In this document: piece by piece, positions 8,446 to 43,803 of the stretch
Layout of the letters: each line of letters opens with the position of its first letter
Numbering within the stretch: the first letter of the stretch is position 1
DNA from: Roseimaritima ulvae
GTDB taxonomy: Bacteria; Planctomycetota; Planctomycetia; Pirellulales; Pirellulaceae
Length of the DNA stretch: 64,000 nt
NCBI RefSeq assembly: GCF_008065135.1
Contig: NZ_CP042914.1
Span: 62,001-126,000 of the forward strand
Direction of reading: 5' to 3'
Position numbers and translations under genes: made by a program
Notes under the pieces: generated by a model
Seen by the model: only the letters and a program-made list of their open reading frames with translations
What the model was told of the DNA's origin: nothing
Database searches by the model: none

Positions 8446-8614
8446 GTAGCCGCAGGCGCCGGCCGCCGTGGATGTCGACAATCACGAATGACACACAGCA
8501 TCAATTCACCTCGATCCACACGTCCCGGCGGACAACGCCTACGCCTGCGGAGCCGATCAGGTTTAAAGGTTTGGGCAGAACGTTTGGCGTCTCCTGCGGC
8601 TACGGGTTAAACGA
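8446..8614. repeat. solitary degenerate copy of the 221-bp array unit
   Basis: In order, this stretch contains GTAGCCGCAGGCGCCGG, GCCGCCGTGGATGT, GGCGGACAACGCCTACGCC, TGCGGAGCC and CTCCTGCGGCTACGGGTTAAACGA. This is the same order as one unit of the tandem array at 41.5-43.8 kb. The middle portion is diverged. It shows that the unit exists as a dispersed single element. Confidence 0.7.
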
Positions 8615-13040: not shown

Positions 13041-13140
13041 GGCTTCAAGCTGTCGGGGGAATCAGGGTGAGACAAAGGGGCAATCGGACACTGGTCCCAC
13101 ATTCTACAGGGTTGCCACTCGGAAAAGCTTAGAGGGTTTT
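13041..13140. promoter_or_regulatory. upstream region of OPT gene
   Basis: About 100 bases between the OPT start codon and the REP block. It should hold the OPT promoter (minus strand), but I could not pick convincing boxes. Confidence 0.3.
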
Positions 13141-13490
13141 AGGCCCGGAGGGCCGGCATAGCCATTGCCGGGGCTGTAAAGCCCCGGTCTTGGCCTCCTA
13201 AAAAACCGCAGGCCCGGAGGGCCGGCATAGCCTTGGCGCAACTGTGTCGGCCCTCCGGGCCTGGAGCGCCTTGTTGGTTTTGATCCGGGGCTTTACAGCC
13301 CCGGCAGAGATTGTGTCGGCACTCCGTGCCTGGCGCCGGTCGCAGCAGAGTCCTGGCCCGGTGCCAGCCACAGCAGTGTCCCGGGTGGGTCTAGGCCCGG
13401 AGGGCCGGCATAGCCTCTGCCGGGGGTGTTGACCCCCGGTAGAATGGATGCCTTTACTTTAAGGCCCGGAGGGCCGACACAACCTCGCGT
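13141..13490. repeat. REP-like palindrome block left of RAYT
   Basis: The block contains repeated GGCCCGGAGGGCC palindromes on both strands, the variant GGCACTCCGTGCC, and CCGGGGCTTTACAGCCCCGG or CCGGGGGTGTTGACCCCCGG hairpins. Stem changes are compensatory (GGCCC/GGGCC against GGCAC/GTGCC). About 215 bases (13141-13354) are a near-identical direct repeat of 14077-14292 on the other side of the transposase. Confidence 0.88.
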
Positions 13491-13500
13491 GGGGAGAATC

Positions 13501-13953
13501 ATGAGCACGCATCAACAATTGTTGTACCACATTGTCTTCAGCACCAAGAATCGCAAACCTTTCCTCAAGAATGATGCTTTTCGAGAGAGTGTTTTTGCTT
13601 ACGCTGCCGGGATCTCAAAAAACCTTGGAGGATTCGCGCTGAACGTCAATGGATATTTTGATCACATGCATTTGTTGGTCCGCATCCCTGCAAAAATCGC
13701 TGTCTCAAAATTCATCGGCGAACTAAAAGCAAACACGAGTAAACACATCAATGATACAAGTGGGCTGATTTACAAATTTGGTTGGCAAGATGGATTTGGT
13801 GCGTTTACCGTCAGCACCTCACAAAAAGACAAGGTGTATGAGTACATTGCCAATCAGATGCAGCATCATCTGGGGGAAACCTATAAGGCGGAATACATTC
13901 GGCTGCTGGAGAAACACGAAGTGGAATACGACCCAAGGTATGTCTGGGAGTAA
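13501..13953 (+). CDS. REP-associated tyrosine transposase (RAYT, Y1 HUH family)
   Basis: The product has 150 aa. ATG 13501 follows GGGGAGAA. The HUH motif is present as GYFDHMHLLVRIP (H55-x-H57), and the catalytic tyrosine is expected in KVYEYIANQMQHH (Tyr115, in the YIANQ context). This matches the Transposase_17/IS200-like fold, a single-strand DNA endonuclease and ligase. Base composition is AT-richer than its neighbours, suggesting acquisition. It is flanked on both sides by REP-like palindromes, the classic REPtron arrangement, so it is probably the source of the GGCCCGGAGGGCC repeats. The right REP begins directly after the TAA stop. Confidence 0.92.
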   Translation: MSTHQQLLYHIVFSTKNRKPFLKNDAFRESVFAYAAGISKNLGGFALNVNGYFDHMHLLVRIPAKIAVSKFIGELKANTSKHINDTSGLIYKFGWQDGFGAFTVSTSQKDKVYEYIANQMQHHLGETYKAEYIRLLEKHEVEYDPRYVWE

Positions 13954-13954
13954 C

Positions 13955-14292
13955 TGTGTCGGCCCTCCGGGCCTGGCGAGTGTTGTTGGCTTCGATCCGG
14001 GGCTTTACAGCCCCGGCAGAGATTGTGTCGGCACTCCGTGCCTAGTGCCGGCCGCAACAGAGTCCTGGACGGGTCTAGGCCCGGAGGGCCGGCATAGCCA
14101 TTGCCGGGGCTGTAAAGCCCCGGTCTTGGCCTCCTAAAAAACCGCAGGCCCGGAGGGCCGACATAGCCTTGGCGCAACTGTGTCGGCCCTCCGGGCCTGG
14201 AGTGTGTTGTTGGTTTCGATCCGGGGCTTTACAGCCCCGGCAGAGATTGTGTCGGCACTCCGTGCCTAGTGCCGGCCCCAGTTGTGTCCTGG
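13955..14292. repeat. REP-like palindrome block right of RAYT
   Basis: This is the mirror counterpart of the left block, with GGCCCTCCGGGCC, CCGGGGCTTTACAGCCCCGG, GGCACTCCGTGCC and GGCCCGGAGGGCC elements. It consists of one extra half block (13955-14076) and then the 215-bp direct repeat of the left block (14077-14292). It starts one base after the RAYT stop and ends 31 bases before the end of the convergent giant gene. Confidence 0.88.
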
Positions 14293-41171: not shown

Positions 41172-41471
41172 CTAAGAATCGTTTTCCGTCACGCTGTCGA
41201 TTTTGTCCTGCATCGATTGCTGGCGGTCGGTACGGGTGCCGACTTTGATGGTCGTGGTGATCCGTGGCGCGCCCAGCTCGTGCACGCGCTCGTGGCAGCG
41301 TTTGATCGCCGCGAACACCTCGTCCCAGTCACCTTCGATGTTGGTGCCATAGGCGTGCAGTCGATGCTCCAGCCCGGCTTCCTGCAAGACCTGCTGGCAT
41401 TCGGCCACATACTTGCTGACCGAAACGCCCACGCCCATCGGCACCACACACAAATCGACAATTACATTCAT
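41172..41471 (-). CDS. MTH1187/YkoF-like thiamine-binding protein
   Basis: The product has 99 aa. ATG 41471 (MNVIVDLCVVPMGVG) is chosen over TTG 41480. Family-typical features are the start VDLCVVPMGVGVSVSKYVAEC, the segment HAYGTNIEGDWDEVFAAIKRCHE and the C-terminal ITTTIKVGTRTD. Members form small ferredoxin-like tetramers; some bind thiamine or its precursor. The tandem repeat array starts only 55 bases upstream, so its promoter lies in or very near the array. Confidence 0.87.
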   Translation of the reverse strand: MNVIVDLCVVPMGVGVSVSKYVAECQQVLQEAGLEHRLHAYGTNIEGDWDEVFAAIKRCHERVHELGAPRITTTIKVGTRTDRQQSMQDKIDSVTENDS

Positions 41472-41526: not shown

Positions 41527-43803
41527 CGTTTACCCCGCAGGCGCAGGCGTCGGCGCGGGCTGGCGCGGGTGTTTGCATAACCATTTCGTGTATCGCAACG
41601 GTCCGCTTCGCTTGCCACCTTAGGGCGGACCACGCCTGCGCCTGCGGAGCCTGTCCGGTCTCAATCGTTTAACCCGTAGCCGCAGGGTCCGGCGCGGGCA
41701 GCCGCGGATGTTTGCATTGCCATTTGGTGTATCGCAACTGTCGGCTTCGCTTGCCACCTTAGGGCGGACCACGCCTGCGCCTGCGGAGCCTGTCCGGCCT
41801 CAATCGTTTAACCCGTAGCCGCAGGCGCCGGCGCGGGCCGGCGCGGATGTTTGCATTGCCATTTGGTGTATCGCAACTGTTGGCTTCGCTTGCCACCTTA
41901 GGGCGGACCACGCCTGCGCCTGCGGAGCCTGTCCGGTCTGCGGGCAATGGCAAGCTTTTCGAGGCTCCTGCGGCTACGGGTTAAACGATGCGCGTCGCAC
42001 GTCTGGCGGCTACGCGGCCTCAATCGTTTAACCCGTAGGCGCAGGCGTCGGCGCAGGCCGCCGCGGATGTTTGCATTGCCATTTGGTGTATCGCAACGGT
42101 CCGCTTCGCTTGCCACCTTAGGGCGGACCACGCCTCCGCCTGCGGAGCCTGTCCGGATCGCGGGCAATGGCGAAGCTTTTCGAGGCTCCTGCGGCTACGG
42201 GTTAAACGATGCGCGTCCCACGTCTGGCGGCCACGTGGCCTCAATCGTTTAACCCGTAGCCGCAGGCGTCGGCGCGGACCGCCGCGGATGTTTGCATTAC
42301 CATTTGGTGTATCACAACTGTCGGATTCGCTTGCCACCTTGGGACGGACCACGCCTGCGCCTGCGGAGCCTGTCCGGTCTGCGGGCAATGGCGAAGCTTT
42401 TCGAGGCCCCTGCGGCTACGGGTTAAACGATGCGCGTCCCACGTCTGGCGGCTACGCGGCCTCAATCGTTTAACCCGTAGCCGCAGGCGCCGGCGCGGGC
42501 CGCCGCGGATGTTTGCATTGCCATTTGGTGTATCGCAATTGTTGGCTTCGCTTGCCACCTTGGGACGGACCACGCCTGCGCCTGCGGAGCCTGTCCGGTC
42601 TGCGGGCAATGGCGAAGCTTTTCGAGGCTCCTGCGGCTACGGGTTAAACGATGTGCGTCCCACGTCTGGCGGCTACGCGGCCTCAATCGTTTAACCCGTA
42701 GCCGCAGGCGCCGGCGCGGGCCGCCGCGGATGTTTGCATTGCCATTTGGTGTATCGCAACGGTCCGCTTCGCTTGCCACCTTAGGGCGGACCACGCCTCC
42801 GCCTGCGGAGCCTGTCCGGATCGCGGGCAATGGCGAAGCTTTTCGAGGCTCCTGCGGCTACGGGTTAAACGATGCGCGTCCCACGTCTGGCGGCTACGCG
42901 GCCTCAATCGTTTAACCCGTAGCCGCAGGCGCCGGCGCGGGCCGCCGCGGATGTTTGCATTGCCATTTGGTGTATCGCAATTGTCCGCTTCGCTTGCCAC
43001 CTTGGGGCGGACCACGCCTGCGCCTGCGGAGCCTGTCCGGATCGCGGGCAATGGCGAAGCTTTTCGAGGCTCCTGCGGCTACGGGTTAAACGATGCGCGT
43101 CGCACGTCTGGCGGCTACGTGGCCTCAATCGTTTGACCCGTAGCCGCAGGCGTCGGCGCGGACCGCCGCGGATGTTTGCATAACCATTTGGTGTATCGCA
43201 ACGGTCCGCTTCGCTTGCCACCTTAGGGCGGACCACGCCTGCGGAGCCTGTCCGGTCTGCGGGCAATGGCGAAGCTTTTCGAGGCTCCTGCGGCTACGGG
43301 TTAAACGATGTGCGTCCCACGTCTGGCGGCTACGCGGCCTCAATCGTTTAACCCGTAGGCGCAGGCGTCGGCGCAGGCCGCCGCGGATGTTTGCATTGCC
43401 ATTTGGTGTATCGCAACGGTCCGCTTCGCTTGCCACCTTAGGGCGGACCACGCCTCCGCCTGCGGAGCCTGTCCGGATCGCGGGCAATGGCGAAGCTTTT
43501 CGAGGCTCCTGCGGCTACGGGTTAAACGATGCGCGTCCCACGTCTGGCGGCTACGCGGCCTCAATCGTTTAACCCGTAGCCGCAGGCGCCGGCGCGGGCC
43601 GCCGCGGATGTTTGCATTGCCATTTGGTGTATCGCAACGGTCCGCTTCGCTTGCCACCTTAGGGCGGACCACGCCTCCGCCTGCGGAGCCTGTCCGGATC
43701 GCGGGCAATGGCGAAGCTTTTCGAGGCTCCTGCGGCTACGGGTTAAACGATGCGCGTCGCACGTCTGGCGGCTACGTGGCCTCAATCGTTTGACCCGTAG
43801 CCA
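41527..43803. repeat. tandem array: two 139-bp and nine about 221-bp palindromic units
   Basis: Unit starts (CGTTTA/GCCCGTAG) are at 41527, 41666, 41805, 42025, 42246, 42467, 42688, 42909, 43130, 43345 and 43566, with a partial unit at 43787. The spacing is 139, 139, 220, five times 221, 215, 221, 221. Long units contain a second module of about 82 bases that the short units lack. In long units the ends are a perfect 23-bp inverted repeat (ATCGTTTAACCCGTAGCCGC and its mirror). Internal hairpins include GGTCCGC/GCGGACC. Units differ by few substitutions; those at 42025 and 43345 share rare variants, indicating block duplication. The array is not CRISPR (no spacers), and open frames shift between units. 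Confidence 0.95.

Follow-up and report, generated by a model that had tools for sequence, protein, structure and literature searches.

A tandem array of palindromic elements in Roseimaritima ulvae is probably the product of in-place amplification of a RAYT-mobilised repeat

A 2.3-kb stretch on the chromosome of Roseimaritima ulvae consists of palindromic units that follow one another head to tail, and raises the question of what these units are and how they came to be multiplied at one site. The first-pass annotation of the 64,000 nucleotides analysed here (the window; contig NZ_CP042914.1, positions 62,001 to 126,000) offered a mobile palindromic element that had amplified, a source of structured RNA, or a chromosome-organisation site. 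We favor the first of these, with a probability of a little over 0.8: the array would have arisen by in-place amplification of a non-autonomous, REPIN- or TIRtron-like palindromic element mobilised by a RAYT, a history in which we infer transposition.

The array is made up of 11 units followed by a terminal tail fragment (Table 1), with successive unit lengths of 139, 139, 220, 221 (five times), 215, 221, and 221 bp, so the near-constant spacing of eleven units that had been described was confirmed by measurement. Each of the nine long units (215-221 bp) combines a palindromic element of 182-188 bp with a linker of 33 bp; a 221-bp unit is thus a 188-bp element plus the constant linker. In units 1 and 2 about 82 bp are missing, in agreement with the earlier description of an absent 82-bp module. 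A perfect 23-bp terminal inverted repeat had been ascribed to all nine long units, but this holds for six of them and the other three have one mismatch each. The array had also been described as free of spacers. The long units do carry the linker, and its constancy led us to reject a CRISPR-like array. A coding repeat was also rejected: the open reading frames in the array (120-122 aa) recur every 221 bp, a spacing that changes the frame, and they run into stop codons. The units at 42025 and 43345 are two substitutions apart, and at lags of 657 and 1320 windows of 200 bp match exactly; for this pair of units, the proposed block duplication by recombination is therefore upheld, with blocks having been exchanged within the array.

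Table 1. Array components, neighboring genes, and other family copies in the window (window coordinates).
Feature	Start	End	Strand	Remark
Tandem array	41525	43801	.	11 units and terminal tail fragment
Unit 1	41525	41663	+	139 bp, without right arm and right tail
Unit 2	41664	41802	+	139 bp, without right arm and right tail
Complete palindromic element 1	41803	41989	+	187 bp, 23-bp inverted repeat perfect
Linker	41990	42022	.	33 bp, equal length at all eight joints between complete elements
Element 2	42023	42210	+	23-bp repeat with one mismatch
Element 3	42244	42431	+	23-bp repeat perfect
Element 4	42465	42652	+	23-bp repeat perfect
Element 5	42686	42873	+	23-bp repeat perfect; its unit was the genome search query
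Element 6	42907	43094	+	23-bp repeat perfect
Element 7	43128	43309	+	182 bp, one mismatch in 23-bp repeat
Element 8	43343	43530	+	One mismatch; unit near-identical to element 2 unit
Element 9	43564	43751	+	23-bp repeat perfect
Terminal fragment	43785	43801	+	Tail only; array terminus
Thiamine_BP gene	41172	41480	-	PF01910, E 9.2e-37; beside array, context only
Membrane-protein-like ORF	43862	44848	-	No Pfam match; other side of array, context only
Solitary diverged copy	8446	8613	+	No left tail; right half aligns
Tail fragment	6250	6278	+	Family tail fragment
Tail fragment	53474	53501	+	Family tail fragment

The array starts about 55 bases from a thiamine-binding-like gene, as first noted, when the distance is taken from the first tail to the likely ATG near 41471. 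An ORF beside the array found no match in three congeners. At the start of the window, positions 2-235 hold a tandem repeat with a 97-bp period (2.4 copies, 98% matches), along with palindromic stretches belonging to a different repeat family.

The element is built of two inverted tails (TCGTTTAACCC then GTAG) that flank a body, and as a single strand this body is predicted to fold into a long stem from which two side arms branch. Folding of the unit surpassed all 200 shuffles, with z values of -5.26 as DNA and -5.63 as RNA. Elements from 42 of 47 element loci, one per locus, were aligned (L082, L224, L064:2407, L260, and the second L255 element were left out) and gave 188 columns with a mean column identity of 81% and a consensus fold that has 17 pairs in its outer stem and two large-looped side arms. 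The compensatory changes among units for which a check had been proposed are nearly absent: two-sided changes occur in two of the 34 consensus pairs and the covariation term is 0.16 kcal/mol. The letters and the palindrome are thus conserved, with almost no sign of a paired structure that varies. Just outside the tail, the letter is T in 268 of 279 tails from the window and 40 picked loci and in 101 of 106 outer flanks, and the commonest dinucleotide is CT (138/279 in the same tails). Single elements at L082, L064:2407-2569, L224, and L251 have longer palindromic flanks, with CCGAGCAAT or GTCGATTTAAT outside both tails, and could represent an older or longer version of the element.

Copies of the element are widespread in the genome. 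The array unit has 408 matches (E <= 0.001) in the 8,212,515-bp chromosome, which answers the earlier call to look for other genomic copies and led us to reject a purely local satellite. The diverged copy that had been reported at 8446-8614 is present, with 8527-8613 aligning well to unit positions 98-184, but it is not the only one, given the two tail fragments elsewhere in the window and the genome-wide matches. A tail 16-mer with at most one mismatch occurs 191 + 194 times in the genome, and its reversed control 0 times. In an unbiased sample of 60 evenly spaced 20-kb stretches (1.2 Mb), 74 tails were found in 19 loci (control 0), which, scaled up in proportion, suggests about 130 loci chromosome-wide. 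None of the 19 loci lies inside a predicted ORF, one overlaps an ORF end by 40 bp, and the coding fraction of the sample plus the window is 77.6% according to our own simple gene finder. By raw count, 11 of these loci are between co-directional genes, five between convergent genes, and one between divergent genes, with two at stretch ends. Three or more tails were found at seven of the 19 loci.

We also looked for traces of individual insertions. Neither a transposition event nor a base-exact empty site was found from joined flanks or in congeners at the array-side ORF, metG, and feoB. Joined flanks of 51 element clusters gave no clean empty site; 20 hits crossed the joint and are read as self-matches or element pieces. 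At the metG locus, the neighboring gene is kept in one of three congeners (G001), with no tail there; the spacer aligns over no more than its final 120 bp or so and the slot is otherwise filled by other DNA, so it is not an empty site at base resolution. At L274, the metG-side slot that is occupied by an array in R. ulvae, G001 contains a different repeat-rich sequence with CCCCTCTCCCC-type inverted stretches, as if the metG spacer collected species-specific repeats. At feoB, the congeners yielded no partner gene.

The candidate for the mobilising enzyme is a 212-aa RAYT (G000:C1:6434236-6434871), the only one of 13 Y1_Tnp hits in the genome with tails within about 1.5 kb. Its gene splits one copy of the element, with a 30-bp match to the left and a 48-bp match to the right, and further copies lie beyond. 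Because the left neighbor is a one-tail joint, to which the left tail belongs, the gene itself is without one. The protein scores 29 bits against Pfam Y1_Tnp (cut-off 23) and 51.3 bits against the NCBIfam RAYT model NF047646, which is below the cut-off of 80. The HUH and Y...NP residues H110, H112, Y180, N184, and P185 are present in all six aligned sequences, although H112 and P185 are only nearly invariant in a set of 55. While no PDB chain matched by sequence, the predicted structure (pLDDT 81.3) matches ISDra2 (E 4.6e-6), the REP-bound RAYT 4er8 (E 4.9e-4), and also IS608, and so has the Y1 fold of the IS200/IS605 group as modelled. Another Y1_Tnp gene, at window positions 13513-13857 (E 4.3e-24), has many GGCCCGGAGGGCC-type palindromes on both sides (about 13130-14280), and is probably part of a second RAYT-repeat pair of this genome.

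Among 60 relatives, its own family has a close ortholog of this RAYT in only one genome (G028, 51%); this is also the second tail-richest genome, and the RAYT gene there is embedded in an array whose tail is the same but whose body is unrelated. In 241 family genomes, RAYT (E <= 1e-20) was detected in 32 and the exact 13-base tail in 23. RAYT was found in five of the eight genomes with at least three tails versus 27 of the 233 others (Fisher p 0.0013), and in seven of the 23 with at least one tail (p 0.020). The exact 13-base tail is absent in 25 of the 32 RAYT genomes, and three genomes have tails with no RAYT at this threshold (G019 with 23 tails, G127 with 5, and G027 with 5). Three of the G019 elements are near-perfect or perfect hairpins of 63-69 bp with the same tail, and in G079 elements stand on both sides of the RAYT.

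A scan of bacterial and archaeal genomes extended this association. The counts that follow refer to the best 80 of 321 RAYT relatives, which are from planctomycetes except for two loci of one Vicinamibacteraceae MAG; one of the two RAYTs there (L170) is close to one from a planctomycete MAG (L163), so misbinning is possible for it. After six loci with less than 150 bp on one side were dropped, 60 of the remaining 74 had a flanking inverted repeat with a score of at least 18, compared with 19 of 436 mismatched-pair controls. RAYT genes within terminal inverted repeats, the arrangement that characterises TIRtrons, are thus found in the relatives. Scores were below 14 at seven of the 74 loci and at least 14 at 67; the R. 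ulvae RAYT, having no left tail of its own, is not among these 67. The tag GTTTARC was present in 57 of the 67 (28 GTTTAAC, 29 GTTTAGC; neither in 10) and in 75 of 3350 control segments. On a quick RAYT tree that includes near-copies, which add to the clustering, the tag letter changed twice versus 19.2 times when shuffled, and none of 500 shuffles gave as few changes. Up to 400 bp from the RAYT gene there were 4.65 tags per kb, as against 0.13 at distances over 1 kb, and tandem arrays with at least two tags were present at 12 of the 80 loci. GTAG is conserved among the elements of R. ulvae, and comes after the tag, by no more than 14 nt, in eight of the 57 GTTTARC loci; the shared tag is therefore GTTTARC.

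Arrays in R. ulvae are of several kinds: some have just left tails, some just right tails, others full elements plus a linker, and some mix these forms. The left-only and right-only arrays represent one joint on two strands, in which the body end CCTGCGG is followed by a spacer and one tail. In the window and 40 loci picked among genome matches, which are not a random sample, this spacer is exactly 6 nt at least once per locus at 27 of 31 array loci, with letters that vary by locus, and 22 of the 31 have a period of 174-178 bp. The window array, with its long units joined by 33-bp linkers, is one of the four exceptions. Of 90 outer flanks, 23 have a GCGG-like microhomology at a distance of 5-7 nt from the tail on its outer side, versus 36 of 5000 random positions. 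The fixed joint fits cutting and joining by a transposase, with slippage at GCGG as the alternative, and we rank neither above the other.

This alternative belongs to a broader rival reading, in which the repeat is an old dispersed one whose arrays gain and lose units by nothing other than slippage and unequal crossing-over at hairpins, with the RAYT no longer involved. Block exchange in the window array, the linker and variants peculiar to each array, the GCGG-like microhomology, and the 33-bp linker itself, which repeats like duplicated flank, are all in its favor, and growth by recombination alone may well account for the window array. It leaves unexplained, however, the dispersal of the copies, the copy split by the RAYT gene, and the co-inheritance of tag and RAYT, and an exact 6-nt spacer with differing letters at most array loci is not expected from random breakpoints. 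As an account of the family, we consider it improbable.

The remaining two rivals fare worse. A structured non-coding RNA or transcript-processing element under selection would agree with the strong predicted folding and with the position of 16 of 17 classed loci between co-directional or convergent genes (raw counts, two more being at stretch ends). However, the 42 aligned elements that share the fold show nearly no covariation, which leaves a structured RNA unsupported; the window has no Rfam match, and the distribution is patchy, with neither the exact 13-base tail nor RAYT (E <= 1e-20) in three congeners. The earlier suggestion of a source of structured RNA is accordingly not borne out, and we regard it as very unlikely. 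Integron attC sites have the core patterns RYYYAAC and GTTRRRY, which the tail sequences GTTTAAC and GTTAAAC fit, and two integron integrases in the genome score over the cut-off. Nevertheless, the elements come without cassettes, and at the one of two intact integrase loci that was covered (2880760-2881710), the genome's own spaced repeats have other ends than our elements and the surrounding 20-kb stretch has no tail cluster, which makes attC sites barely credible. That stretch (L222, G000:C1:2876000-2895999) carries the integrase along with spaced attC-like repeats ending in GGCAGAAC and GTTCTGCC; a second intact integrase is at 3002368-3003309, and there are two truncated ones besides.

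We thus return to the amplified mobile palindromic element, which is supported by dispersed copies outside ORFs, a RAYT inside one copy, the same association in other genera, and the co-inheritance of tag and transposase. The RAYT, as a Y1 HUH transposase with the IS200/IS605 fold, would recognise the tail and hairpin on single-stranded DNA and cut close to the tail, so that copies could spread to intergenic sites. Further copies would then be added head to tail, at most loci by the fixed one-tail joint and in the window array with a 33-bp linker carried along; the array would be homogenised by unequal exchange. On this reading the array consists of multiplied mobile elements rather than a new RNA or chromosome structure, with the chromosome-organisation site suggested earlier receiving no support here, and a host function is unnecessary to explain it.

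Several known systems resemble this one in part. The text on the REPINs of P. fluorescens SBW25 describes hairpin-forming paired inverted repeats with many intergenic copies, and ordered tandem clusters that include flanking sequence and lie beside RAYT genes (PMC3116915). Our element shares their inverted conserved ends, variable spacer, high copy number, and extragenic location. However, the size distribution of the replicative units described there has its peaks at 71 and 110 bp, and ordered clusters reach a maximum of four REPINs (PMC3116915), while the present element is about 184 bp and three-armed, has another tag, and forms commoner and longer arrays. Compensatory hairpin changes are reported in that text to be common in P. 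fluorescens REPINs (PMC3116915), and they are nearly missing here. TIRYTs or TIRtrons, by their published text, likewise have a RAYT-like gene within long terminal inverted repeats that are also dispersed, dimeric, or clustered (PMC3733652); some of these repeats share the motif GGGGWSAS instead of GTTTARC, a comparison made by text with the repeats of Figure 9 aside, such that overlap is possible.

GTAG-tagged REPtrons, as their texts present them, pair a Y1 HUH transposase bearing the HUH and Y...NP signatures with palindromes next to its gene, and have a tag on the unpaired side and CT as the cutting site of the known enzymes, the same dinucleotide that is commonest outside our tails (PMC3733652, PMC6006769, PMC8266576). 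Our element is not a REP of this kind, a palindrome of 20-40 bp ending in GTAG: its body far exceeds that length, and GTAG is close to the tag in only the few relatives counted above. The text on Class 3 TnpAY1, from Planctomycetes and others, also describes planctomycete Y1 genes that go with high-copy secondary structures of an atypical kind, but these have a CnGA foot and a Y....Q signature (PMC6006769) where ours have GTTTARC and Y...NP. Several REP families are mentioned for R. baltica in the text of PMC3733652, and the RAYT enzyme work found in the literature searched is on proteobacterial systems. No GTTTARC-tagged repeats were found in that literature, figures and supplements of the key papers aside. 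Tandem REPIN arrays are therefore already known, and it is the GTTTARC tag, the three-armed body, and the fixed joint that seem new, as judged from the text of those papers.

Taken jointly, these features allow a more tentative reading, which we put forward as possible but rather less than even in its chances: the GTTTARC tag with its own RAYT clade may form a separate planctomycete palindrome superfamily beside GTAG and CGTC, and the RAYT itself may build satellites at the one-tail joint (body end, 6 nt, tail), making most arrays products of transposition and not accidents of replication. If true, one transposase clade and one tag would be coupled across many planctomycetes, with the tag letter switching along with the transposase branch, which would amount to a natural experiment in end recognition by a single-strand transposase. 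With dozens of arrays that have joints of the same 6-nt length and different letters, the origin of REP clusters and of bacterial satellites would become testable.
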